This document shows positions 16,060-56,602 of a DNA stretch of 64,000 nucleotides, piece by piece. Position 1 is the stretch's first letter. Every line of letters begins with the position of its first letter. Both the position numbers and the translations under genes were made by a program. The notes under the pieces are model-generated. The model had not been told where the DNA came from. It saw only the letters and a program-made list of their open reading frames with translations, and did no database searches. Origin of the DNA: Archangium primigenium (GTDB lineage Bacteria; Myxococcota; Myxococcia; Myxococcales; Myxococcaceae). Location of the stretch: positions 8,303,224 through 8,367,223 of the forward strand of contig NZ_JADWYI010000001.1 in NCBI RefSeq assembly GCF_016904885.1. The letters run 5' to 3'.

Positions 16060-17400
16060 ATGTTCCCTGAATTCCTGCGCAACGCCATCGATGTAGCAAG
16101 CAACGCCGTCTGGGGTCCGTGGACGATGGCCCTGCTGCTCGGAACCGGTGTGTTCCTGACGATCCGCCTGCGCTTCGTCCAGGTGGTGCGCCTGCGCGAG
16201 GCGGTGCGCGCCATGGTGCCGGAGCGGGCCACGGGCGCGGGGGCGCTCACGCCCTTCCAGGCCTTCATGACGGCGCTGGGGGCCTCCATCGGCACGGGGA
16301 ACATCGCGGGGGTGGCCACGGCCATCGTGAGCGGCGGGCCCGGGGCGCTGTTCTGGATCTGGGTGTACGGCTTCTTCGCCACGGCCATCAAGTTCTGCGA
16401 GGCCGTGCTGGGCATCCGCTACCGCCGGTGGGACGGCGAGCGGCTGTCGGCTGGCCCCATGCACTACCTCAAGGACGGCCTGGGCGCGCCCCGGCTCGCC
16501 TGGCTCTACGCGTTCATCGCCGGCGTGGCCGCGCTCACCACCACCCCCTTCACCCAGCCCAACTCCATCGCCGTGGTGCTGCACAGCCAGTTCGACCTGC
16601 CGCCGCTCGCCTCGGGCATCGGCATCGCGGTGCTCACCTGGCTCGTGGTCATCGGCGGCGTGAAGAGCGTGGGCCGGGCCGCCGAGCGCCTCGCGCCCCT
16701 CAAGGTCGGGCTGTACCTGGTGGGCGGCCTCGTGGTCGTCATCACCCACCTGGGCCAATTGCCCTCGGTGCTGGCGCTCGTGGTGCGCGAGGCCTTCTCG
16801 ATGGAGGCCGCGGGCGGTGGCGCGCTGGGCGTGGGGATGATGACGGCCATGCGCTACGGCATCGCCCGGGGCATCTACGCCAACGAGGCCGGCTACGGCA
16901 CGGCGGCGGTGGCCTATGGCACGGCGCGCACCGATGCCCCCGTGCGCCAGGGGCTCCAGGCGGTGATGGAGGTGTTCATCGTGTCGTGCGTGACGTCCAC
17001 GCTCAGCGCGCTGGTCATCCTGGTGAGCGGCGTGTGGAAGTCCGGGCTCACGAGCACCGCCGTGGTGGCCCAGGCCTTCAACACCGCCATTCCCACGGTG
17101 GGCGGCTGGGTGGTGGCCTTCTGCGCCTTCCTCTTCGGCTACACGACGCTGATTGGCTGGGCGTACTACGGCGAGCAGTTCCTCGAGTACGCGTTCGGCC
17201 CCCGGCTCACCGTGCCCTACCGCTGGGTGTACTGCGGCCTGGTCGTCTTCGGCGCCACGGGCAAGGTGGAGACCATCTGGGCGTGGGGAGACCTGATGAA
17301 CGGCCTGCAGATCTTCCCCAACCTCGTGGGGCTCATTGGCTTGAGCGGTGTGGCCGCGTCCGTGCTCAAACCGGAGCGGCCCGTGGTCTCACGGCCCTGA
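16060..17400 (+). CDS. AGCS-family alanine/glycine:cation symporter
   Basis: 446 residues, about 11 membrane segments, full family length. The signature ASIGTGNIAGVATAI (residues ~78-92) and the ANEAGYGTAAVAYGTAR motif are diagnostic of the alanine or glycine:Na+ symporter family (AlsT/DagA/CycA-like AGCS). It imports small neutral amino acids using sodium or protons in the inner membrane. It starts 26 bases from the divergent M14 peptidase. The last 95 bases of homology (17285-17379) reappear about 1.5 kb downstream at 18825-18919, and composition falls sharply right after this gene. Its present 3' end (PVVSRP) may therefore have been rewritten by the insertion. Confidence 0.93.
   Translation: MFPEFLRNAIDVASNAVWGPWTMALLLGTGVFLTIRLRFVQVVRLREAVRAMVPERATGAGALTPFQAFMTALGASIGTGNIAGVATAIVSGGPGALFWIWVYGFFATAIKFCEAVLGIRYRRWDGERLSAGPMHYLKDGLGAPRLAWLYAFIAGVAALTTTPFTQPNSIAVVLHSQFDLPPLASGIGIAVLTWLVVIGGVKSVGRAAERLAPLKVGLYLVGGLVVVITHLGQLPSVLALVVREAFSMEAAGGGALGVGMMTAMRYGIARGIYANEAGYGTAAVAYGTARTDAPVRQGLQAVMEVFIVSCVTSTLSALVILVSGVWKSGLTSTAVVAQAFNTAIPTVGGWVVAFCAFLFGYTTLIGWAYYGEQFLEYAFGPRLTVPYRWVYCGLVVFGATGKVETIWAWGDLMNGLQIFPNLVGLIGLSGVAASVLKPERPVVSRP
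17285..17379 (+). repeat. 95-bp direct repeat, upstream copy (symporter 3' end)
   Basis: This stretch inside the symporter gene aligns without gaps to 18825-18919, with nine mismatches by eye (about 90% identity). It begins GGGGAGAC and ends CAAACCGGAGCGG in both copies. The two copies bracket the AT-richer DisA_N gene. After 17379 the two copies diverge completely. Confidence 0.9.
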
Positions 17401-17486
17401 AAAACACGACATCCAAATCGGCCCCAAATCAAATTTCTTAACAACACGACGCAAACGCGAGCCCCCATTTCACCTAAAACAAAACC

Positions 17487-18794
17487 ATGCACAACTTCGA
17501 CGAAAAAGCTCTCGCAGTGGTCAAAGGCAGCAAACTAAATCCGCAAGACATTCAACTCGTTCTATCAAGAATACCCAAAGCGATGCCGCATCTGAAATTT
17601 TCGGACAACTGGACAGTATTCGAAGAGAAGGGTGACTCTTTTGCGCATCGCACAAAAACTGGGGCTCATTGCCACGTCCAGATCAAAGACGCACATATCG
17701 CCATTGAAGTCTTCTCCAGAAAAGAAACCCTCAGCAATGATGATCTCCAAGTACTAAGAGATCTGTGCCAGGAAGCCGCTGGATTGATTCAAGCGTCGAC
17801 TGACAATGGCGTTTCACTTGCAGACTTTGGAGTAAACGCCATGTCCAGCGTAATCGCCAAATATATTTCCGAATCATCAGCGCACCCCGTGTCGTCCGCT
17901 CAAGTCAAAAACTATTTTAAGTTTCTTCGCTCGCTCTCTGGCGAGACATATGAAAACCAAAGGATATCGTACGGGCTCATTTTACTTCCCCAGAAAAAGC
18001 GAGCCGCATCCTCAGTACTAGAGTTCGACAACAAGAGATTCAAAAGACTAACCGATGGATTCTCAACGGCCATTTCGCTCGATGTTAACGGCTCAATCGT
18101 CCAATTGACGTCGCTAACGGCAAAGAAAGAAAACAAAAACTCCAGTTTGGGACGTCCCTGGTGGATCGGTCCGCTTGCCGATACAGCGTCAAGTCAGGGT
18201 GGAATTGGAGTTGCCCTAACAAAGGGCGGTGACATTTTGGTTGTAAAAGACAGGGAACTCTTGATCTCACAGCGAGCAGGAGAGTGGAGGCTTTGGAGGC
18301 ATAGCGCTATAACCTCAGCAGTAAGAGACTCCTGGCTAACCAGAGGCCACCCCGGGAATCTTGATAGAGTGTTGGTTGCTCTGTATCGAGTTGCACTCGA
18401 CTTGGCATTTCGGCGCTCTGGCGGACTTCTCGTCGTTGCCTCAACTTGGAAAAAAGCTGATAAACTCGTTACAGCCAAGGGTGACCTGATTGGAGCTTCG
18501 AGCAGGAGCAACTCCGAGCAGGCACTCGACAACTCTCTCTCCGAAAAATCAATTTTGACCATGGATAGAAGAGTGCTTGCCGACCTAGCCAGTCTAGATG
18601 GAGCGCTCGTCATTCATCGTTCAGGACGGCTTGTGGCATACGGCGCAATGGTTCGAGCCAAATCCAATACCGCTCAACAGGGGGCTCGTTCGAGGGCTGC
18701 AATTGGGGCAAGTGAATACGGCCTCGCAATCAAAGTCAGCTCGGACGGCGGAATCACCGTTTACAGGCAGGGTGTTTGCGTGGTCACGCTTTGA
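17487..18794 (+). CDS. DisA_N-like (diadenylate-cyclase fold) protein on an AT-richer islet
   Basis: 435 residues, with codon usage rich in A/T unlike every neighbour. Residues 1-~180 are a mixed, unrecognised region. The C-terminal ~190 residues follow the DisA_N/DAC layout: ALDLAFRRSGGLLVVAS, then the DGA motif (SLDGALVIHRSGRLVAYGA), then GARSRAAIGASEYGLAIKVS and a closing beta hairpin (GGITVYRQG). In active diadenylate cyclases the second motif is RHR; here the middle His is Ser, so c-di-AMP synthesis is uncertain and a degenerate nucleotide-sensor role is possible. No membrane segment. No clear ribosome site before ATG 17487. The protein is probably a recently acquired signalling or defence gene. 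Confidence 0.7.
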   Translation: MHNFDEKALAVVKGSKLNPQDIQLVLSRIPKAMPHLKFSDNWTVFEEKGDSFAHRTKTGAHCHVQIKDAHIAIEVFSRKETLSNDDLQVLRDLCQEAAGLIQASTDNGVSLADFGVNAMSSVIAKYISESSAHPVSSAQVKNYFKFLRSLSGETYENQRISYGLILLPQKKRAASSVLEFDNKRFKRLTDGFSTAISLDVNGSIVQLTSLTAKKENKNSSLGRPWWIGPLADTASSQGGIGVALTKGGDILVVKDRELLISQRAGEWRLWRHSAITSAVRDSWLTRGHPGNLDRVLVALYRVALDLAFRRSGGLLVVASTWKKADKLVTAKGDLIGASSRSNSEQALDNSLSEKSILTMDRRVLADLASLDGALVIHRSGRLVAYGAMVRAKSNTAQQGARSRAAIGASEYGLAIKVSSDGGITVYRQGVCVVTL

Positions 18795-18824
18795 TGGTGC
18801 AATTTCTTTACACCCTCGCAAGGA

Positions 18825-18958
18825 GGGGAGACATGATGAACGGCCTGCAAATCCTCCCCAACCTCCTGGTGCTCATTGGCCTGAACGCTGTAGCCGCGTC
18901 CGTGCTCAAACCGGAGCGGACGCTGGACACGCCGACCTCGGCGTCTACTGCACTTTGA
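18825..18958 (+). pseudogene. Orphan 3' end of an AGCS symporter gene
   Basis: In frame, this stretch encodes GDMMNGLQILPNLLVLIGLN, then AVAASVLKPER, then a short tail ending at TGA 18956-18958. It corresponds to the last ~45 residues of the symporter at 16060-17400. The rest of the gene is absent; sequence upstream belongs to the DisA_N gene. It is either the original 3' end displaced by insertion of the islet, or a piece carried in by it. The nine differences from the upstream copy show that the two have diverged or came from different strains. Confidence 0.85.
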
Positions 18959-19474
18959 CTATGTACGCCCTGTCTTGATGCCCGACACGCGGATGTAGTG
19001 CTCCGCCCGCTGCGTGGCTCGTGAAGGCACGCGGGCTGGAGCCCGTGGAGATCGCCGTCGTTTTGTCCGGGGCATACACGGTGATCGGGGTAGAGACACC
19101 CGTCGTGGTCGCAGTCGATGGACGAGGCCGCCCAGCTGAATTCGTAGATGTGGTCCGCCGTGGCGAAGAACAAGAACCCGTCCTGGTCCCGGGCGTCTCT
19201 TGGCCCGTGCTGCTCGCGGTAGCCGGTAAGAGCGCTGTGGCGGTCGCGGCCGTATCGTCGTGGTCACCCGGAACCGACAGCACGCACGCCTCGCTCTGGG
19301 ACGACATAGCCGCTCACGCAAGCAACGGCCCTGCTCGTTGTGGCACTAGCGTGGTGGCTTGGCTCGCAGGCACAGACAGTCCGATCATCGGAGACCTCGC
19401 AGCAGCCAGGACCACAGGCGAGGTCTAGCACGGCCTCCGGACGGACTTGTCATTGCGTCTCGAGCAACCTTCCC
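18959..19474 (+). other. 516-bp region without an intact gene, probable gene debris
   Basis: No reading frame here combines a ribosome site, a sensible start and myxobacterial codon pattern. On the minus strand a fragment reading DHIYEFSWAASSIDCDHDGC (about 19150-19090) looks protein-like but is closed by frame changes, suggesting a decayed secreted protein. On the plus strand a 135-codon frame (19021-19428) shows no motif. The region separates the DisA_N islet from the DUF819 operon, consistent with an insertion-prone spot. Confidence 0.45.
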
Positions 19475-20677
19475 TCAATGAAGCAGTCGGTACACCTGCT
19501 CCAGCATCACCGCGCACACGAGGCCGCCATAGGTGCCCAGCACGTAGCCGGCCACCGCGAGCATGACGCCCACCGGAGCGAGCGCGGGATGGAACGCGGC
19601 GGCCACCACGGACGACGACGCCGCGCCGCCCACGTTGGCCTGGGAGCCCACGGCCGCGAAGAAGATGGGGGCACGCAACCACCTGCGCACGCCCAGCACG
19701 ATGCCCGCGTGCACCGCCATCCACACCAGGCCCACGGCCACCATGGCCGGCGCGTCCAGCAGTCGCCGGAAGTCCGCCTTGGCGCCAATGGTCATCACCA
19801 GCACGTAGAGGAACAGCGCCCCCACGCGGCTCGCGCCCGCGCCCTCCAATTCGCGCAGGCGCGTGAAGGACATGAGCCCGCCCACCGTCGTCACCAGGAG
19901 CACCACCCAGGTGAAGCCGGTGATGAACGTGCCCACGTCCGGCAGGTGCTTCGCCACCTCCGTGCACACCACCGTCGTGCCCAGGGAGAGGGCCAGGAGC
20001 CACACCAGGTCCTGCATGCGCGTGGGCCGGGACACCGCGGCGTGGAAGCGCTCCACCTGCTCGCGCACCACATCGATGGCCCGCCGGTCCGCGCCCAGCC
20101 GCTCGTCCATCTGGCGCTCGCGCCCCGCGAACCACAGGAGCACCGCCGTCCACAGGTTCGACACGCCCACGTCCACCACCACCATCATGCTCAGCGTGTC
20201 GTCGCGCGCCCCCACGCTCTGCCCGATGGCCACGAAGTTCGCGCTCCCGCCAATCCACGAGCCACTGAGCGCCGCCAGCCCCTTCCACGCCTGGTCCCCC
20301 AGGTCCGCCGGCACCCAGCGGCCCAGCAGCAGGTAGGCCAGGGGCCCGCCCAGCATGATGCCCACCGTGCCCGCGAGGAACAGCAGCACCGCGCCCCGCC
20401 CCAGCCGGGAGATGGCGCCCAGGTCCATGGCCAGCACCTGGAGCACGAGGCTCGCGGGCAAGAGGTACGCCGACACGAAGCCGTACAGGTCCGAGCGCGT
20501 GGGGATGACGCCCGTGTTGGACAGCAGCGTGGGCACGAAATAGACGAGCACCAGCAGGGGCACGACCTTGAAGACGCGCCCGAGCACGGGGTGGCGCTCG
20601 GCGAGCAGCAGCAGCGCCAGGACGGCCAGCAGCACCACCAGCACCGCCATGGGCGCCTGGATGAGCGGTCCGGTCAT
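19475..20677 (-). CDS. DUF819-family multi-pass membrane protein
   Basis: 400 residues with about 10-11 hydrophobic segments and a soluble loop near residues 205-240. Conserved features of DUF819 (YjcL-like) are visible: an early VVPLLVLVYFVPTLLSNTG segment, GSWIGGSANFVAIGQSVGA, and FFAAVGSQANVGGAASSSVV near the end. The start ATG overlaps the TGA of the dipeptide epimerase gene by 4 bases, so the pair is translationally coupled. Family members are predicted transporters with no proven substrate. Coupling to a dipeptide epimerase suggests movement of peptides or amino acids from murein, which is an inference. Confidence 0.85.
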   Translation of the reverse strand: MTGPLIQAPMAVLVVLLAVLALLLLAERHPVLGRVFKVVPLLVLVYFVPTLLSNTGVIPTRSDLYGFVSAYLLPASLVLQVLAMDLGAISRLGRGAVLLFLAGTVGIMLGGPLAYLLLGRWVPADLGDQAWKGLAALSGSWIGGSANFVAIGQSVGARDDTLSMMVVVDVGVSNLWTAVLLWFAGRERQMDERLGADRRAIDVVREQVERFHAAVSRPTRMQDLVWLLALSLGTTVVCTEVAKHLPDVGTFITGFTWVVLLVTTVGGLMSFTRLRELEGAGASRVGALFLYVLVMTIGAKADFRRLLDAPAMVAVGLVWMAVHAGIVLGVRRWLRAPIFFAAVGSQANVGGAASSSVVAAAFHPALAPVGVMLAVAGYVLGTYGGLVCAVMLEQVYRLLH

Positions 20678-31021: not shown

Positions 31022-32071
31022 ATGTCCCTCAAGCCCTCGCGGCCCTCGCAGGCCTCGCCCAAGACGGGCGGGCGCCTGCTGGACCCGGGGCTCAACCTCA
31101 CGCTGCGCCCCATGCAGTACCCGGCGTTCTTCGAGATGTACCGCAACGCCATCAAGAACACGTGGACCGTGGAGGAGGTCGACTTCTCCACGGACGTGGG
31201 CGACCTGCGCGCGAAGATGTCACCCGCGGACCGGCACCTCATCCAGCGGTTGGTGGCGTTCTTCGCCACGGGCGACTCCATCGTGTCCAACAACCTCGTG
31301 CTCAACCTGTACAAGCACGTGAACTCGCCCGAGGCCCGGATGTACCTGTCGCGCCAGCTGTACGAGGAGGCGCTGCACGTGCAGTTCTACCTCACGCTGC
31401 TGGACACCTACGTGCCGGACCCCGCCGAGCGCGCCAAGGCGTTCGCCGCCATCGACAACATCCCGAGCATCCAGCAGAAGGCCGCCTTCTGCTTCAAGTG
31501 GATGGACTCGGTGCACCAGCTCGACCGGCTGGAGACGCGCGAGCAGCGGCGCACCTTCCTGCTCAACCTCATCTGCTTCGCCGCGTGCATCGAGGGCCTG
31601 TTCTTCTTCGCCGCCTTCGCCTACGTGTACTTCCTGCGCTCGCGCGGGCTGCTCCACGGACTGGCCGCGGGCACCAACTGGGTGTTCCGCGACGAGAGCG
31701 CCCACATGGCCTTCGCCTTCGACGTGGTCAAGACGGTGCGGCGCGAGGAGCCGGGCCTCTTCGACGCCCAGATGGAGCGCGAAGTCGTCTCCATGATGGA
31801 GGAGGCGGTGGAGTGCGAGCTGCGCTTCGCCGAGGACCTGCTCCAGGGCGGCGTCGCCGGCCTGTCCGTGAAGGAGATGCGCCAGTACCTGGAGTTCGTG
31901 GCGGACCAGCGGCTGGTCATGCTGGAGCTGCCCAAGCGCTACGGGTCCAAGAACCCCTTCAACTTCATGGACCTGCAGGACGTGCAGGAGCTGGCCAACT
32001 TCTTCGAGCGCCGCGTGTCGGCCTACCAGGTGGGCGTCGAGGGCGAGGTCACCTTCGATGCCTCGTTCTGA
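31022..32071 (+). CDS. nrdB: Class I ribonucleoside-diphosphate reductase, beta (radical) subunit
   Basis: 349 residues. A GTG at 31010 overlapping the nrdA stop is an alternative start that adds four residues. Iron ligands and radical site can be placed: D85, E116, H119 (EEALHVQFY), the radical Tyr Y123, E191 (CIEGLFFF), E225 and H228 (RDESAHM). The spacing E-x2-H-x3-Y matches the tyrosyl-radical class Ia type rather than the Tyr-less class Ic. It houses the diiron centre and passes the radical to NrdA. The gene ends inside the start of the thioesterase gene (14-bp overlap), so all three are one transcript. Confidence 0.96.
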   Translation: MSLKPSRPSQASPKTGGRLLDPGLNLTLRPMQYPAFFEMYRNAIKNTWTVEEVDFSTDVGDLRAKMSPADRHLIQRLVAFFATGDSIVSNNLVLNLYKHVNSPEARMYLSRQLYEEALHVQFYLTLLDTYVPDPAERAKAFAAIDNIPSIQQKAAFCFKWMDSVHQLDRLETREQRRTFLLNLICFAACIEGLFFFAAFAYVYFLRSRGLLHGLAAGTNWVFRDESAHMAFAFDVVKTVRREEPGLFDAQMEREVVSMMEEAVECELRFAEDLLQGGVAGLSVKEMRQYLEFVADQRLVMLELPKRYGSKNPFNFMDLQDVQELANFFERRVSAYQVGVEGEVTFDASF

Positions 32072-32504
32072 GCCGCCCGCCGAGCCGGCTCAGAAGATGG
32101 AGCCGGGCCGCGTCACCGAGGCCCGGCTCATCGAGATGGTGTTCCCCGAGCAGACGAACCACTACGGGACGCTGTTCGGCGGACAGGCGCTCGCGCTGAT
32201 GGACAAGGCGGCCTTCGTGGTCGCCTCGCGGTATGCCCGGCGCAACGTGGTGACGGCGAGCAGCGAGAAGGTGGACTTCCACGTGCCGGTGCGTCAGGGC
32301 CAGCTCGTGGAGTTGCACCCGCGCGTGGTCGCCACGGGCCGCACCTCCATGACGGTGGAGGTGGACCTGTTCGCGGAGGACCTGCTCACCGGGGACCGGC
32401 AGCTCGGCACCCGGGGACGGTTCGTCTTCGTGGCGCTGGACGCGCACGGCCGCCCCACCGCCGTGCCGCCCCTGCCCACCTCGACCGATGCCACGGGCGG
32501 CTGA
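32058..32504 (+). CDS. Hotdog-fold acyl-CoA thioesterase (YciA/BACH-like)
   Basis: 148 residues. A single hotdog domain with the family motif TNHYGTLFGGQALALMDKAA (N36 and D51 being the expected catalytic positions) and a downstream SSEKVDFHVPVRQGQLVEL strand. It would hydrolyse acyl-CoA to free acid and CoA. It overlaps the 3' end of nrdB by 14 bases, an odd partner for ribonucleotide reductase. A second, broken copy of its 3' end lies at 35130-35298, on the other side of the toxin/immunity cassette that follows. Confidence 0.9.
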   Translation: MPRSEPPAEPAQKMEPGRVTEARLIEMVFPEQTNHYGTLFGGQALALMDKAAFVVASRYARRNVVTASSEKVDFHVPVRQGQLVELHPRVVATGRTSMTVEVDLFAEDLLTGDRQLGTRGRFVFVALDAHGRPTAVPPLPTSTDATGG

Positions 32505-32522
32505 CGCACGGCCCCGCGCCGA

Positions 32523-33806
32523 ATGACGGGCGCTCGGCTGCGCCTCTCGGGCGGCTGGTTTCTCCTCGTCCTCTTCCTTCAGGCCGCCTGTGCCACCGGC
32601 GGCATGCGGGTGAGCCACCGCCACGACTCTGCCCCCAGGGAGTCCGTCACACTCACGCCCAACGGCGACTTCGCGCCCGTGCAGGTCTCGGATGCGGAGT
32701 TTCGCGAGGCCTTCACCCAGCTGTTGCTGGAAGTCCCTCTCCGGGTGGCCCCCCGCCCGCCCCAGCCGCGCTCCGGCCGCCTGGTGCGGGCCTCCTGGCC
32801 TCCGCGTGGCGCGGGGGACTCCAGCGTCGAAGGTGGCTACGCGCGCCTGTGCGAGCGGCGCGGCGCTCCGGGGGACTGCTTCTGGCTCCTGAGGGACGGA
32901 CCCCACGACACCACCCTCAGCCACCCTGACAGGTTCGCGTTGGCCCTCGGCCTCGCGCTCGCTCCCGCGGTGGATGCGGCCACGGGCGTCCTCCGGGACG
33001 CCTCCGAGCACGCCCTGACGATGCTCCTCACGGGCCTGTCCCTGTACCTCGTGGTGCTCATGGCGCCGGAGCCCATCTCCAAGGGCCTCGCCACCGCGAT
33101 GACCCTCTGGCTCTGGGGCTATCTGGGCAGCGAACTCTGGGACTTGCTCTCCGCCACCCAGGGCCTCTGGGACGAGGCGGAGGCCGCCAGGACCTTCCTC
33201 GAACTGCGCGACGCGAGCGAGCGGTACGCCAAGGTACTCGGACCCAACACGCTGCGTGTCCTCATCCTCCTGGCCACCTGGAAAGCGGGCGCCAAGGGCA
33301 AGGAGGCCATGACAGGGAGCACGCTGCCGGGCTTTCCCCAGGCGGTGCAGAATGCCGCCCGTGCGGGCCACGTCGTCCTGCCCGTAGCGGCCTCCGATGC
33401 GACGTCGGTGTCCGTGGCGGGGGGCGGACTGACGCTCACCCTTCCCGCCAGCTCGAGTGCCGTCCTCTCCATGCTGGAGGAAGGCGACATCCACCACATC
33501 GCCACCGTGGAGAACGGGAAGTCCCCCGCGCGGGGCGGGCCGTGGACGCCAAAGCTCCAAGAGCTCTTCGACAAGGCGGGCATGTCGATGGAGGAGCCAG
33601 CCAACAAGGTCCGCATTCGCGGACACAAGGGGCCCCACCCCAGGGAGTATCATGAGCGCGTCTTTCGGCAGCTCCGGGATGCGGTCAGGCGGTGCAAGAC
33701 CCCCGCCCAGTGCCGGGAGGCGCTGACCCATGAGTTGAAGAACCTGGCCGATGAACTCGCGGAGGCAGGCTCCGAACTCAACAGGCTGGTCACCCGGAAC
33801 CAGTGA
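32523..33806 (+). CDS. SitA5-like lipoprotein polymorphic toxin with C-terminal AHH nuclease domain
   Basis: 427 residues. Lipoprotein signal ending LQAAC (C23). The delivery region (about 40-310) matches the SitA5 family layout: VQVSDAEFREAFTQLLLEVP, a GRLVRAS strand, a Cys-bounded GAPGDCF segment, and two hydrophobic helices around 165-205. The C-terminal ~115 residues are an AHH-type HNH/endonuclease-VII nuclease: H324/H325 (DIHHIATVEN), H368 and H372 (GHKGPHP), H377 (REYH). SitA toxins are lipoproteins handed between myxobacteria by outer-membrane exchange to kill non-kin lacking immunity. The paired immunity gene starts 15 bases later. It lies in an accessory islet. Confidence 0.88.
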   Translation: MTGARLRLSGGWFLLVLFLQAACATGGMRVSHRHDSAPRESVTLTPNGDFAPVQVSDAEFREAFTQLLLEVPLRVAPRPPQPRSGRLVRASWPPRGAGDSSVEGGYARLCERRGAPGDCFWLLRDGPHDTTLSHPDRFALALGLALAPAVDAATGVLRDASEHALTMLLTGLSLYLVVLMAPEPISKGLATAMTLWLWGYLGSELWDLLSATQGLWDEAEAARTFLELRDASERYAKVLGPNTLRVLILLATWKAGAKGKEAMTGSTLPGFPQAVQNAARAGHVVLPVAASDATSVSVAGGGLTLTLPASSSAVLSMLEEGDIHHIATVENGKSPARGGPWTPKLQELFDKAGMSMEEPANKVRIRGHKGPHPREYHERVFRQLRDAVRRCKTPAQCREALTHELKNLADELAEAGSELNRLVTRNQ

Positions 33807-33821
33807 GGCCACGAGACCGAC

Positions 33822-35078
33822 ATGGCACGACGGTACTTTGAGCTGACCGAGGACATGATCCATCCGGAGCGTTGGGTGCTGGGCGACGCGCTCGACGCTC
33901 AAGGACTGGAGGTGGGTGAGCGGCTGTACCTGAACGAGGCCGCCACTCGTTTCGACGGTCTCCTGCGCGTTCCCCTTCTCCATCCTGGAAGCCCGCTCGA
34001 CTTCTCATTGGCGAACGGCGGGGATTTCCCCGTGGTCACGCAAGCGGTCGCCAGCGCGCTTGCCGAACGGACTTCGGGCGACGTCCAGCTCTACCCCGCC
34101 GAAGTGGACTTGCGGTCAGAGCCTTACTTCCTGGTCAACGTCGCGCGCCTCGTGAAGTGCATCGACGACGCGGCCTGCACCGAGGTGCGGTACTGGAAAC
34201 CAGAGCATGGACGGCCCGACAAGGTCGGGCAGTACCGCGCGGTCCACGGCATGCGCATCGACCCCGCCAAGGTCGGTGAGGCCAAGGTCTTCCGGCCCTG
34301 GGGATATCCAGCGGCCCTTCTCGTCGCCGAGGACGTGAAGGAGGCGCTCGAGCGCACTGGCGCCTCGGGCCTGGAGTTCAGGGAGGTCACCGGGCCCAGC
34401 CCCCTCAGCGAAGAGGAGCGCGCCTACAAGCGCAAGTGCCGCGAGCTTCTGGAGCCGCCCCCAGCCGCCAGACGCGCGGCATGGCAATCACTCGGCACGC
34501 TGGATGACCTGGCCGTTGCCCCCAGGGCCATCCGCGACGACTGGCCGGGCCATCGCCAGAACTGGGGCGTCATCCATCGCGAGGAGGGACGCACCCTCCT
34601 CGTCTCCGAGGGCCTCTCGGACCCCTTCATCTCCAAGCTGGAGCCCTCGGTGGGCTTTGGCCTGGAGCTCGCCCTGGAGACAGACGAAGCGGAGGTGCCT
34701 CTCGACGACATCGAGGGGAGCTGGCCCTACACGCTGTTGGAGAGGGTCTCAAAGGAAGTCGTGGTCCACGAGCACGTGCGCGAGAGGGCCAAGGTGGGCC
34801 TGCTCATGCTGGAGGTCGCGGGCGACGGCATGCCCCCGGCACTGGTCAGCAAGGAGGGCCGCGTGGGCATGTTGCTCGGCATGGAGTCGCGAACACTGCC
34901 CAGGCACTTCCCCACCCCCTTCGGAGACGTGCGGCTCGTCACCGTCAAGGCCCTGCTCCCCGCGGAATTGGAGTACGTGTCAAGGCACTCCAGAGAGGGG
35001 ACAGCGGAGCTGGCGCGGCGCTTCGCACAAGCCGGTGAGGAGCACGTCTCCCGCGCCAACCGGCGGCCCGTGGTGTAG
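33822..35078 (+). CDS. Fused Imm11 (DUF1629)-SUFU-like immunity protein
   Basis: 418 residues, no signal peptide. Residues 1-~190 fit the Imm11/DUF1629 family (MARRYFELTEDMIHPERWVL, RLVKCIDDAACTEVRYWKPE, HGMRIDPAKVGEAKVFRPWG). Residues ~225-418 resemble a suppressor-of-fused (SUFU) domain (GFGLELALETDE, PYTLLERVSKEVVVHE, LLMLEVAGD, VRLVTVKALLPAELEYV). Both domains are known immunity modules of polymorphic toxin systems; finding both in one chain is unusual. It lies 15 bases after the SitA5-like AHH toxin gene, so it should protect the producer. Which domain blocks the AHH nuclease is not known. Confidence 0.82.
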   Translation: MARRYFELTEDMIHPERWVLGDALDAQGLEVGERLYLNEAATRFDGLLRVPLLHPGSPLDFSLANGGDFPVVTQAVASALAERTSGDVQLYPAEVDLRSEPYFLVNVARLVKCIDDAACTEVRYWKPEHGRPDKVGQYRAVHGMRIDPAKVGEAKVFRPWGYPAALLVAEDVKEALERTGASGLEFREVTGPSPLSEEERAYKRKCRELLEPPPAARRAAWQSLGTLDDLAVAPRAIRDDWPGHRQNWGVIHREEGRTLLVSEGLSDPFISKLEPSVGFGLELALETDEAEVPLDDIEGSWPYTLLERVSKEVVVHEHVRERAKVGLLMLEVAGDGMPPALVSKEGRVGMLLGMESRTLPRHFPTPFGDVRLVTVKALLPAELEYVSRHSREGTAELARRFAQAGEEHVSRANRRPVV

Positions 35079-35129
35079 GTCGCGCGCCCTGAAGCACCTT
35101 CAGACGCGGGCGCCAGACGGCTCGCTAAC

Positions 35130-35298
35130 TGGTGACGGCGAGCAGCGGGAAAGTGGACGTCCACGTGCCGGTGCGTCAGGGCCAGCTCGTCGGGGGCGGT
35201 TCGTCTTCGTGGCGCTGGATGCGCACGGCAGCCCCACTGCAGTGTCATCCCTGTCCGCCTCGACCGATGCCACGGACGGCTGACGCACGGCCCCGCGC
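35130..35298 (+). pseudogene. Decayed duplicate of the thioesterase 3' end
   Basis: 35130-35190 aligns with 32248-32308 (3 mismatches in 61 by eye) and 35191-35298 aligns with 32412-32519 (about 11 mismatches in 108). A 103-base segment (32309-32411) is missing between the two blocks, which breaks the frame. The match runs past the stop codon into the shared TGACGCACGGCCCCGCGC. This remnant brackets the SitA5 toxin/immunity genes. The following 216 bases (35299-35514) hold no recognised gene. Confidence 0.9.
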
Positions 35299-35514
35299 AG
35301 CATGACAAGGATGTCACTCGGGCGGACTCGCGCCTCAAGAGGGCCTACCGGCAGTCACCATCGTCCATTGTCGTCTCGATGCTGGACGAGTGGCTCGCTA
35401 CACACGGACAGATTCTCCAGGAGATACACTGGCCTCTAATGGACGAGTGCACCTCGCGCGAGTTCAGCTGGTTTCCGAGGAAGTGTCACAGACCCGTTCT
35501 ACCAGGAGAACAAT

Positions 35515-53359: not shown

Positions 53360-56300
53360 TCAGCGCAGGTCGCCCCAGAGCACGGAGCTCTCGTCCTCGA
53401 GCAGCAGCACCGTGTGGTGGCGGCCCGTGGCGATGGCGCGCACGTGCTCGGGCGCGGGCACCGCCCCGGGCGTGGAGCGCGCCTCGGTGCCGCCGTCGCC
53501 GAGCTGCCCCGCGGCATTGTCGCCCCACGTCCACAGCCCGGTGTCCGAGCGCGCCAGCGAGTGCGCGCCGCCCGCCGCGAGGAACGTGACGCGCGAGAGG
53601 CCCTCCACCCGCACGGGGGTCGGCAGCGAGGCGGCGCTGGAGCCCACCCCCAGCTGCCCCTGGGTGTTGTCGCCCCAGGCCCACACCGAGCCCTCGCGCG
53701 TCAGGCCGAGCGTGTGCCGGGCGCCGGCCACGACGGACTGGAGCGCCGGGAGCGCCGGCACCAGGACGGGCGTGGTCCGCGGCGTCGAGGCGCCCCCCAC
53801 ACCGAGCTGGCCGTGGGTGTTGTCGCCCCAGGCCCAGAGCGTTCCGTCGGCGCGCACCGCCAGGGAGTGGCCGGCCCCCGCGGCGATCGACACCACGTCC
53901 AGCACCCCGCCCACCCGCGCGGGGGTGGAGCGGAAGGTGCCCGTCGTGCCCTCGCCGAGCTGGCCCTGGGTGTTGTCTCCCCAGGCCCACACGGAGCCAT
54001 CCGCGCGCAGCGCCAGGGCGTGCGTGTCCCCCGCGACGAGCGCCACGACATTGATGAGCCCCGGCACCTGCTGGGGCGTGGCCCGCGTGCCGCCCAGGGC
54101 CGTCTCCGTCCCGAGCTGGCCGCGGGTGTTGTCGCCCCAGGTCCACACCGTGCCATCACACTGGAGCGCCAGGGAGAACGCGGCCCCGGCCGCCACGGCG
54201 TCGATGCACACCGGCGGCCGGATGAAGCCGGGCGCGTCGCGGAAGCCCTCGGCCTCGGGACCCAGCTGGCCGTGGGAGTTGCTGCCCCAGGTCCACACGG
54301 CCCCATCGACGTAGGAGGCCAGGACGTGGTGGGCGCCCGAGGCGAGCGGCACGGGCCGCGTCTGGCCCCGCACCGGGGCGGGCACGGGCAAGAGCGTGGT
54401 GGAGCCGTTGCCGAGCTGGCCCGAGGTGTTGTCCCCCCAGGACCACACCGTGCCGTCCTCGCGCAGCGCGAAGGAGGTGCGTCCGCCCGCCGCCAGGCCC
54501 GTCACCCGCGCGAAGCCCGGCACGCGCAGCGGCGACAGCTCCGAGACCGTGCTCCCATTGCCCAGCTGCCCGGTGGCGTTGCGGCCCCAGGTCCACACGG
54601 CGCCCTCGGCGCTCAACGCCAGCACGTGGGTGGAGCGCGGAGAGAGCGCCACGAGCACGTCCGTCACGCCCGACACGCGCGCGGGCGCCGAGCGCTGCGC
54701 CGTGGAGCCATCCCCGAGCTGGCCCGAGGCATTGTCGCCCCACGTCCACAGGCCCCCGTGCTCGTCCAGCGCCGCCGAGAAGGACGGCCCCGCGGCGATG
54801 GCGACGATGACGGGCAGGCCCCCCACCCGCACGGGCAGGGTGCGCCCGACGGTGGAGCCATCACCCAGCTGGCCGGAGCTGTTCTGGCCCCAGGCCCACA
54901 CGCCGCCGTCCGTCTTGAGCGCCAGCGAGTGGTACATGCCCGCGGCCACGTGGCGCACGCCCGACAGGGACGACACCAGCTCCGGCGCCCGGGGCGCGAA
55001 GGCGGTGGAGCCGCTGCCCAGCTGGCCGTGGTTGTTGTCGCCCCACGCCAGCACCTGGCCGTCCGAGCGGACCGCCAGCGAGTGGTACACGCCCGCGGCG
55101 ATCGCCTGGATGCCCGTCACGCCCGGGAGCGCGGCCGGCGTGGCGCGCCGTCCCGAGGTGCCATCCCCCAGCTGGCCATAGTTGTTGTCCCCCCACGTCC
55201 ACACCGCGCCATCACGCAGGAGCGCCAGCGAGTGGAAGGAGGACGCGGCGAGGCTTCGCACCGCCGGCAGCGCGAGCGTCACCGGCGTGGAGCGCGAGCC
55301 GAAGCCCGTGTCCCCGAGCTGGCCATAGGTGTTGTCCCCCCACGCCAGCACCGAGCCGTCCGGACGCAGCGCGAAGGCGTGCAGATCCCCGGCCACCAGG
55401 GACTCCACCCCGACGAGGCCCTGGATGACCGCCGGCACGCCCCGCCAGCTGGAGAAACCATTGCCCAGCTGGCCCACGCCGTTGGCGCCCCAGGCCCACA
55501 CGCCGTTGTCCTCGCGCGACACGAGCGAGAAGGCCCCGCCCGCCGCGATGCTCCGCACCTTGGACGGCGCGGAGAGCCGCACCGGCTCGCGCACCGGCGC
55601 GAGCGTGCCCTGGGCCGCCTGCCCCTGGGTGTTGTCACCCCAGACCCACACCGCGCCGTCGCTCGTCCGGGCGAGGGAGTGGCCCGTGCCCGCCTCCACG
55701 TGGGAGACACTCACCAGTCCCGGCACGCGCACCGGCGCCGAGGTGGCCCCCGACGCGCCCAGGCCCAGCTGGCCCAAGGCATTGTCGCCCCAGGCCCAGA
55801 CGCGCCCGTTGGAGTCCACCGCCAGGCTGTGCGAGCCACCGCCCGCCACGCCGATGATGCCCGAGAGGCCCGGCACCTGGACCGGGGCGACGCGCGCGCC
55901 CGTGGTGCCATCCCCGAGCTGTCCGGCGGCATTGGCGCCCCAGGTCCACACCGTGCCGTCCTCCCGCAGCGCCAGCGCGTGGAAGTCTCCCGCCGCGATG
56001 GCCGTCATGCCCGCGAGCCCCTGCACGCGCACGGGCCGGGAGCGCGCGGTGGTGGAGCCGTCCCCGAGCTGTCCCGAGCTGTTGTTGCCCCAGGCCCACA
56101 CCGTGCCGTCCGTCTTGAGCACCAGCGAGTGCACGAAGCCCGCGGCCACCGCCCGCGCCTCCGACACGTCCAGCACCTGTCCGGGCGTCAGCCGCGCGGA
56201 CAGGCCGGACTCCCCGAGCTGCCCGTCGGAGTTGCCGCCCCAGGCCCACACCGTTCCATCATCCCGGAGCGCCAGCGAGTGCACGTTGCCCGCGGCCACC

Positions 56301-56602
56301 GCCCGCACCGACGTGAGCCCCAACTGCTGCGGCACCGGGCGATGGGTCTGGGTGCCATCGCCCAACTGCCCCTGGGCATTGCCGCCCCAGCTCCACACCG
56401 TGCTCATCGGCGTGACGAACAGCGCGTGGCTCGTGCCCGCCGCGAGCCGGAAGGCCGGGTCCTGTCCGGCGACGGCGTCCGCCCGCGAGGCCAGGGCCTC
56501 GGCCGGTGGGGAGAACGGCGCGTCTCCACACGCGAGACACGCCCACAGCAGCAGCAGGGGGAACGGCACCCGCGGGCGCCTGGAGAAGCTCGGGTCCATC
56601 AT
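53360..56602 (-). CDS. RCC1-repeat lipoprotein
   Basis: 1080 residues (two adjacent ATGs at 56602 and 56599; AAAGGAAG upstream). The signal ends LLLLWACLAC, with either Cys a possible lipidation site. The mature protein is about 20 RCC1 repeats of ~51 residues, each with a WGxNxxGQLGDG core and an AAGxxHSLAL strand, plus a final partial repeat (VLWGDLR). That is enough for nearly three seven-bladed propellers. Expected at the cell surface or in outer-membrane vesicles as a binding scaffold; no function is known. The repeats make antisense frames look coding. Confidence 0.92.
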   Translation of the reverse strand: MMDPSFSRRPRVPFPLLLLWACLACGDAPFSPPAEALASRADAVAGQDPAFRLAAGTSHALFVTPMSTVWSWGGNAQGQLGDGTQTHRPVPQQLGLTSVRAVAAGNVHSLALRDDGTVWAWGGNSDGQLGESGLSARLTPGQVLDVSEARAVAAGFVHSLVLKTDGTVWAWGNNSSGQLGDGSTTARSRPVRVQGLAGMTAIAAGDFHALALREDGTVWTWGANAAGQLGDGTTGARVAPVQVPGLSGIIGVAGGGSHSLAVDSNGRVWAWGDNALGQLGLGASGATSAPVRVPGLVSVSHVEAGTGHSLARTSDGAVWVWGDNTQGQAAQGTLAPVREPVRLSAPSKVRSIAAGGAFSLVSREDNGVWAWGANGVGQLGNGFSSWRGVPAVIQGLVGVESLVAGDLHAFALRPDGSVLAWGDNTYGQLGDTGFGSRSTPVTLALPAVRSLAASSFHSLALLRDGAVWTWGDNNYGQLGDGTSGRRATPAALPGVTGIQAIAAGVYHSLAVRSDGQVLAWGDNNHGQLGSGSTAFAPRAPELVSSLSGVRHVAAGMYHSLALKTDGGVWAWGQNSSGQLGDGSTVGRTLPVRVGGLPVIVAIAAGPSFSAALDEHGGLWTWGDNASGQLGDGSTAQRSAPARVSGVTDVLVALSPRSTHVLALSAEGAVWTWGRNATGQLGNGSTVSELSPLRVPGFARVTGLAAGGRTSFALREDGTVWSWGDNTSGQLGNGSTTLLPVPAPVRGQTRPVPLASGAHHVLASYVDGAVWTWGSNSHGQLGPEAEGFRDAPGFIRPPVCIDAVAAGAAFSLALQCDGTVWTWGDNTRGQLGTETALGGTRATPQQVPGLINVVALVAGDTHALALRADGSVWAWGDNTQGQLGEGTTGTFRSTPARVGGVLDVVSIAAGAGHSLAVRADGTLWAWGDNTHGQLGVGGASTPRTTPVLVPALPALQSVVAGARHTLGLTREGSVWAWGDNTQGQLGVGSSAASLPTPVRVEGLSRVTFLAAGGAHSLARSDTGLWTWGDNAAGQLGDGGTEARSTPGAVPAPEHVRAIATGRHHTVLLLEDESSVLWGDLR

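Follow-up and report, generated by a model that had tools for sequence, protein, structure and literature searches.

The 64-kb stretch of DNA analysed here (the window) hosts an intact symporter gene whose 3′ end is present twice, on either side of an AT-rich islet with one gene. The features of the locus are listed below.

16060-17400, + strand: AGCS Na+/alanine symporter gene, intact, the host of the insertion (Pfam Na_Ala_symp, E 4.2e-106; full-length relatives are 70-88% identical)
17285-17390, + strand: proximal copy of the symporter 3′ end (pairs with copy 2 over 95 bp; similarity to the relocated single-copy allele of congener G002 runs until 17390)
17391-18824, + strand: foreign AT-rich islet, 1.43 kb, which supplies the last symporter codons and the stop at its left end (GC content, codon adaptation, absence from the loci of 13 relatives)
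17487-18794, + strand: DAC-fold (DisA_N-like) gene, 435 aa, a predicted defence gene (Pfam DAC, E 1.9e-7, above the curated cut-off; AlphaFold2 and Foldseek; family alignment; defence neighbourhoods)
18825-18919, + strand: distal repeat of the symporter 3′ end (copy 2), the displaced original in decay (deviates at 9/9 mismatches; agrees with the G002 block in its right flank)
18943-19470, - strand: decayed lipoprotein gene that ancestrally adjoined the 3′ end of the symporter (its C-terminal end and stop are conserved next to copy 2)
19475-20674, - strand: DUF819 membrane protein gene, the other flank of the variable site (Pfam DUF819, E 7e-89; syntenic in g1 and g8 genomes)

The symporter 3′ end is repeated at 17285-17379 and 18825-18919. 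The two copies can be aligned gap-free and are identical at 86 of 95 positions (90.5%), with the coordinates and the nine mismatches being exactly those given by an earlier, sequence-only reading of this DNA. Weaker similarity extends to 17398 and 18938, respectively (114 nt, 85%). The repeat is not due to chance, because the runner-up among ungapped 95-mer matches across the window reaches just 48/95. As the sequence-only reading had also noticed, the distal copy is open in frame to a stop of its own at 18956-18958.

Between the copies, over 17391-18817, the GC content is 49.5%, compared with 70.1% for the window, and the codon adaptation of the islet gene is 0.167, compared with 0.751 (s.d. 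0.10) in 31 reference genes of the window. These profiles, which had been proposed as a check, bear out the earlier description of an AT-richer 1.4-kb segment with a single gene of the DisA_N type; one DAC-type gene is all that the islet encodes. AT-rich sequence abuts the symporter copies at both sides, hence we set the bounds of the islet at 17391 and 18824. Our search of the islet found no integrase, transposase or terminal inverted repeat, as the sequence-only reading had reported, and a search for tRNA attachment sites found none. The islet is foreign.

Which of the two copies is the working end of the gene? At all nine mismatches the majority base of ten relatives is that of copy 1, unanimously at seven positions and by 9/10 and 8/10 at the other two. 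It is copy 2 that deviates, and six of its nine changes are non-synonymous. A sign test on the deviation of copy 2 (8/8) gives P 0.004; counts of synonymous and non-synonymous differences between copy 2 and single relatives are individually non-significant (P 0.07-0.64). By these comparisons the proximal copy is the symporter end that is conserved and functional. Copy 2 is decaying without function, because it departs from the relatives at every mismatch and by six amino-acid changes. It also retains the ancestral right flank, which places the displaced original distally. A whole gene on the proximal side and a displaced end on the distal side fits both the decay of copy 2 and the ancestral flank. 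Earlier it had been proposed that the islet restored the symporter end with a version of its own. The agreement of copy 1 with the relatives lends no support to this, and since decay can explain all of the differences between the copies, a divergent imported version is not needed.

The site in related genomes

A full-length symporter gene is found in 14 of the 96 genomes of the family, this genome (G000) included. The DAC gene is carried by none of the 13 other loci (0/13), which agrees with the earlier suggestion of an islet that inserted at a protein-gene 3′ end and is at odds with a gene shared by all relatives at this place. None of the same 13 loci has a second symporter 3′ end within 9 kb.

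The sequence-only reading had proposed a comparison with an empty site, and this has been successful in part. In congeners G002 and G001 a relocated block holds a single symporter 3′ end with the lipoprotein gene immediately after it (intact in G002, where it encodes 628 aa); the block in G001 additionally contains a part of DUF819. The undisturbed order of symporter, lipoprotein gene and DUF819, on the other hand, was found in no relative, and no donor molecule was found. That reading had also expected the 3′ end in relatives to match 18825-18958, where the flank does match and the repeat does not. The interval 18943-19470, after the second copy, is not empty and holds the decayed minus-strand lipoprotein gene, the segments 19107-19193, 19246-19323 and 19349-19468 of which are 82-86% identical to the two blocks.

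The DUF819 piece of the relocated block is 91-95% identical to the window, against ~80% for the congeners' own DUF819, and both blocks (L062 8952-10932 and L063 9057-10372) are closer to the window than to the DUF819 of their hosts. Horizontal transfer of the relocated blocks is suggested. The symporter of congeners G001-G003 is itself reduced to fragments, and the relocated block is the closest view that we have of the site prior to insertion; the empty site is one that we deduce from blocks in congeners whose own symporter has been deleted.

Two further observations concern symporter fragments. At L061 7200-9470 a symporter 3′ end shares 98% identity with its counterpart in another genus (G019), with broken pieces of an IS91 transposase adjoining it and a toxin-like reading frame behind. 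A 90-bp repeat beside the fragment in G003 was considered as the end of a mobile element and rejected, as its copies extend into an IS91-transposase-like reading frame, of which it is a fragment.

The symporter and DUF819 are neighbours again in six genomes of genus g8, with differing genes between them. The cargo there is Septu PtuA/PtuB, a SitA6/SitI6 toxin-immunity pair, or other genes. The Septu-like pair (PtuA 2.5e-181, PtuB 2.4e-63) is found in two related genomes, at L064 9685-11657 and L065 9827-11802. The gap between the symporter and DUF819 is a variable site that hosts alternative defence or toxin modules in relatives. This variation in conflict cargo is new with respect to the sequence-only reading, as is the recurrence of the architecture in the genome, to which we now turn.

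Duplicated gene ends elsewhere in the genome

A second bracketed case lies in the window itself, at a thioesterase gene:

32058-32504, + strand: host gene, 4HBT acyl-CoA thioesterase-like, the 3′ end of which (~32241-32527) forms the proximal repeat
32523-33806, + strand: SitA5-family polymorphic toxin with an AHH nuclease domain (NCBIfam NF050093, 6e-48; Pfam AHH, 4e-19)
33822-35078, + strand: immunity protein, Imm11 and SUFU (Pfam Imm11, 8.7e-9; SUFU, 3.5e-6)
35123-35306, + strand: distal repeat of this 3′ end, from which 103 bp are deleted internally (61 bp at 95%, 116 bp at 89%)

A search for a relative with which to compare the thioesterase found none. The passages of PMC5562445 that deal with SitA/SitI polymorphic toxin cassettes place them on prophage-like and other mobile elements. 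As in these myxobacterial cassettes, toxin-immunity cargo is found here, both at the same symporter site in relatives and at this second bracketed site in the window; bracketing by the 3′ ends of host genes, as seen here, goes unmentioned in those passages. Elsewhere in the window, 53369-56445 is internally repetitive, with many overlapping copies at 63-69% identity.

We scanned 1.66 Mb, or 17.5% of this one genome, for recurrences. The 3′ end of a gene that we take to be udgX forms a 258-bp repeat, 97.3% identical, around the anti-phage system IetAS (L177 11677-18166, which is G000:C1:251677-258166; IetA 1.9e-72, IetS 5e-31), where IetS is interrupted by an IS630-type transposase. Each matching congener or g8 genome has a single udgX end. 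The mismatches do not reveal which udgX copy is older; unusual bases at three positions sit in the proximal copy, and these would be more easily explained by import of the 3′ end than by simple duplication. At G000:C1:699093-700962 the 3′ half of what is presumably a glycosidase-like (GH) gene forms a 575-bp repeat (97%) around a single gene, presumably VOC; the names udgX, glycosidase-like and VOC were assigned by reading the sequences, without a family search. A low-GC AAA-ATPase gene lies between 157-bp repeats (92%) at G000:C1:377763-381124, in this case at the start of a gene rather than its 3′ end, and amid a cluster of further duplications.

Flanking repeats are found for 4/16 low-GC islets, compared with 30/900 random placements (P 0.0016), where one islet that the low-GC scan had split was merged by hand. 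When the window's own islet is left out, 3/15 low-GC islets have flanking repeats (P 0.012). The duplicated-end architecture recurs at several unrelated genes in this genome. Further repeat pairs, at 386, 402, 584 and 661 kb and at 8.16, 8.39, 4.11 and 4.28 Mb, were dismissed as repeats of domains or IS fragments.

Routes of insertion

The following is established: the cargo is foreign, a host gene end is duplicated, the original is displaced, there are several targets with repeats of ~95-575 bp, and the islets have no recombinase and no common ends. The reading that we favour, with roughly even confidence, is a recombinase-free insertion-duplication of a single-gene conflict cargo at the symporter 3′ end. 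A foreign islet would have entered this end by recombination, with the last 95-110 bp becoming duplicated beyond the insert. The symporter remains intact proximally, and the old end, still joined to the lipoprotein gene, is decaying distally. An element-encoded recombinase would not be required. Most likely, a molecule that carried the cargo together with a piece of a same-species symporter 3′ end was taken in by one homologous crossover, or else the duplication arose while captured DNA was end-joined. Once bracketed, the cargo could be lost or could re-enter via ordinary, RecA-dependent recombination between the repeats. Integration by host recombination is what we infer, as is its exact route.

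There is a precedent for such a process. In pneumococcus, transformation drives duplications without a transposase (PMC3784515). In the insertion-duplications and merodiploids that result from natural transformation, host recombination acts on repeats of the donor and the chromosome and thereby duplicates DNA with no need for a transposase, as we propose here. The pneumococcal duplications are large and in tandem, and we draw the connection from them to small cargo islets at the ends of genes. Myxococcus xanthus, too, is reported to undergo natural transformation (Wang 2011, listed as reference 83 in PMC8538405).

Could an integrase have inserted the islet instead? It is rather unlikely that a tyrosine or serine integrase, since lost or acting in trans, placed the islet site-specifically at the symporter 3′ end, with the 95-bp repeat being the identity block of the att sites. 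Integrative islands such as e14, at icd, are well known to occupy protein-gene 3′ ends, and the geometry here is the same as theirs: an insertion at the gene end and a direct repeat of it, with the intact gene lying proximally and the displaced original end distally, next to its old neighbour. Displaced symporter ends start at 17265 in G002, at 17266 in G003 and at 17285 in the window (~17259 with a small gap permitted), and the near coincidence of the G003 and G002 starts hints at a preferred breakpoint. The unusual bases of the proximal udgX copy are also in keeping with an integrase. However, the islet is just 1.4 kb long with one gene, and an integrase is lacking from it and from every other bracketed islet. 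Five different targets have been used, with repeats of ~95-575 bp, and a test for terminal sequence shared among the ends of the inserts found none. Furthermore, an e14-type element supplies a divergent version of the gene end, whereas the distal copy here is decayed; copy 2 differs by decay, where a homologous import would differ mainly at synonymous positions.

It seems quite improbable that the symporter or its 3′ part was duplicated in tandem with the cargo between the copies, and that the second copy was then mostly deleted. The locus does erode easily, as is evident from the fragments left in G001-G003, and at 4.37 Mb gene-scale duplications around a low-GC segment provide a precedent. 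Yet two symporter copies at the locus are found in 0 relatives, and the mostly non-synonymous changes of copy 2 imply that its time within a functional gene was probably short. Transposition of the cargo by an IS or a rolling-circle (IS91-like) element whose ends were lost is highly improbable: the displaced 3′ end of G003 does adjoin broken IS91 transposase pieces, but no copy of that IS91 family was detected in G000, the islet has neither terminal repeats nor a transposase, and no transposon is known to make a target duplication of ~100 bp.

Insertion-duplication by host recombination, the favoured reading, bears on an open question: how do small defence and toxin modules move without a recombinase of their own? 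This genome offers several dated snapshots, with repeat identities of 90-97%, at unrelated genes. The repeats also make the route testable, as excision and re-entry should follow RecA and repeat length, and not a site.

A candidate defence gene with a diadenylate cyclase fold

The cargo of the symporter islet belongs to a family that is related in fold to known diadenylate cyclases. An AlphaFold2 model built from 21 sequences has a mean pLDDT of 75, with values above 90 across most of the DAC part. A Foldseek search with the model identified a C-terminal DAC fold, for which CdaA and DisA are the top hits in the PDB (E 7e-6, probability 1.0). The DGA motif that these cyclases have in common with the islet protein is retained as D371-G372-A373. 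The RHR motif is absent; the window protein has R401-S402-R403 (RSR) in its place, and most of the family GGRxAAAK. Because the RHR motif has been replaced, catalysis is uncertain. The islet protein differs from CdaA and DisA further in the ~340 residues that precede the DAC motifs, which match no family, and in belonging to a family that is sporadic and has CBASS neighbours.

No close homologue, that is, none above ~30% identity, was found in GTDB contigs, IMG/VR, phages or plasmids, and the wider DAC-like family was found by alignment search only. Its members are sporadic in Clostridia, Verrucomicrobiota, Pseudomonadota and others. On a plasmid of Agrobacterium vitis a family member adjoins a complete type II CBASS operon, in Vogesella the neighbours are CapV, a CD-NTase and the anti-phage protein DS2_3 (3e-243), and in Pseudomonas they are CapV and a CD-NTase. 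CBASS neighbours are thus found in three lineages, all outside the myxobacteria. In an Oscillospiraceae genome a Shango-like SngC adjoins a family member, and AbiLi-like and LmuB-like genes are neighbours of others.

Since the neighbours of the family are known anti-phage systems, defence would be the likeliest function of the cargo, by guilt by association. The gene in the window differs from catalogued CBASS and defence-island genes in two ways: it stands alone, with no defence gene beside it, and its protein matches no known defence family, having no PADLOC match and reaching only E 0.032 with DS2_3 in NCBIfam. The family is a concrete candidate for a defence gene, with CBASS neighbours and no PADLOC entry.

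Small conflict islets at the 3′ ends of protein genes are of a known kind; what is new here is an islet without an integrase and with a candidate defence cargo of DAC fold. We suggest, tentatively and as a doubtful rather than a probable case, that myxobacteria host a class of recombinase-free conflict islets, with defence or toxin genes bracketed by duplicated host-gene 3′ ends, which host recombination by itself could insert, excise and pass on, and that the cargo here is a new kind of anti-phage gene with a diverged diadenylate-cyclase fold, acting alone or beside CBASS.

Two minor observations concern other DAC-like genes. In Vogesella (L120 2496-7621) the order CapV, CD-NTase, DS2_3 and DAC-like gene resembles an operon, and the DAC-like gene there might be a CBASS accessory. 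Myxobacteria also have a conserved DAC-like paralogue of 450 aa without a Pfam match, ~28% identical, which is located in this genome at L057 910-2256 (G000:C1:7300590).
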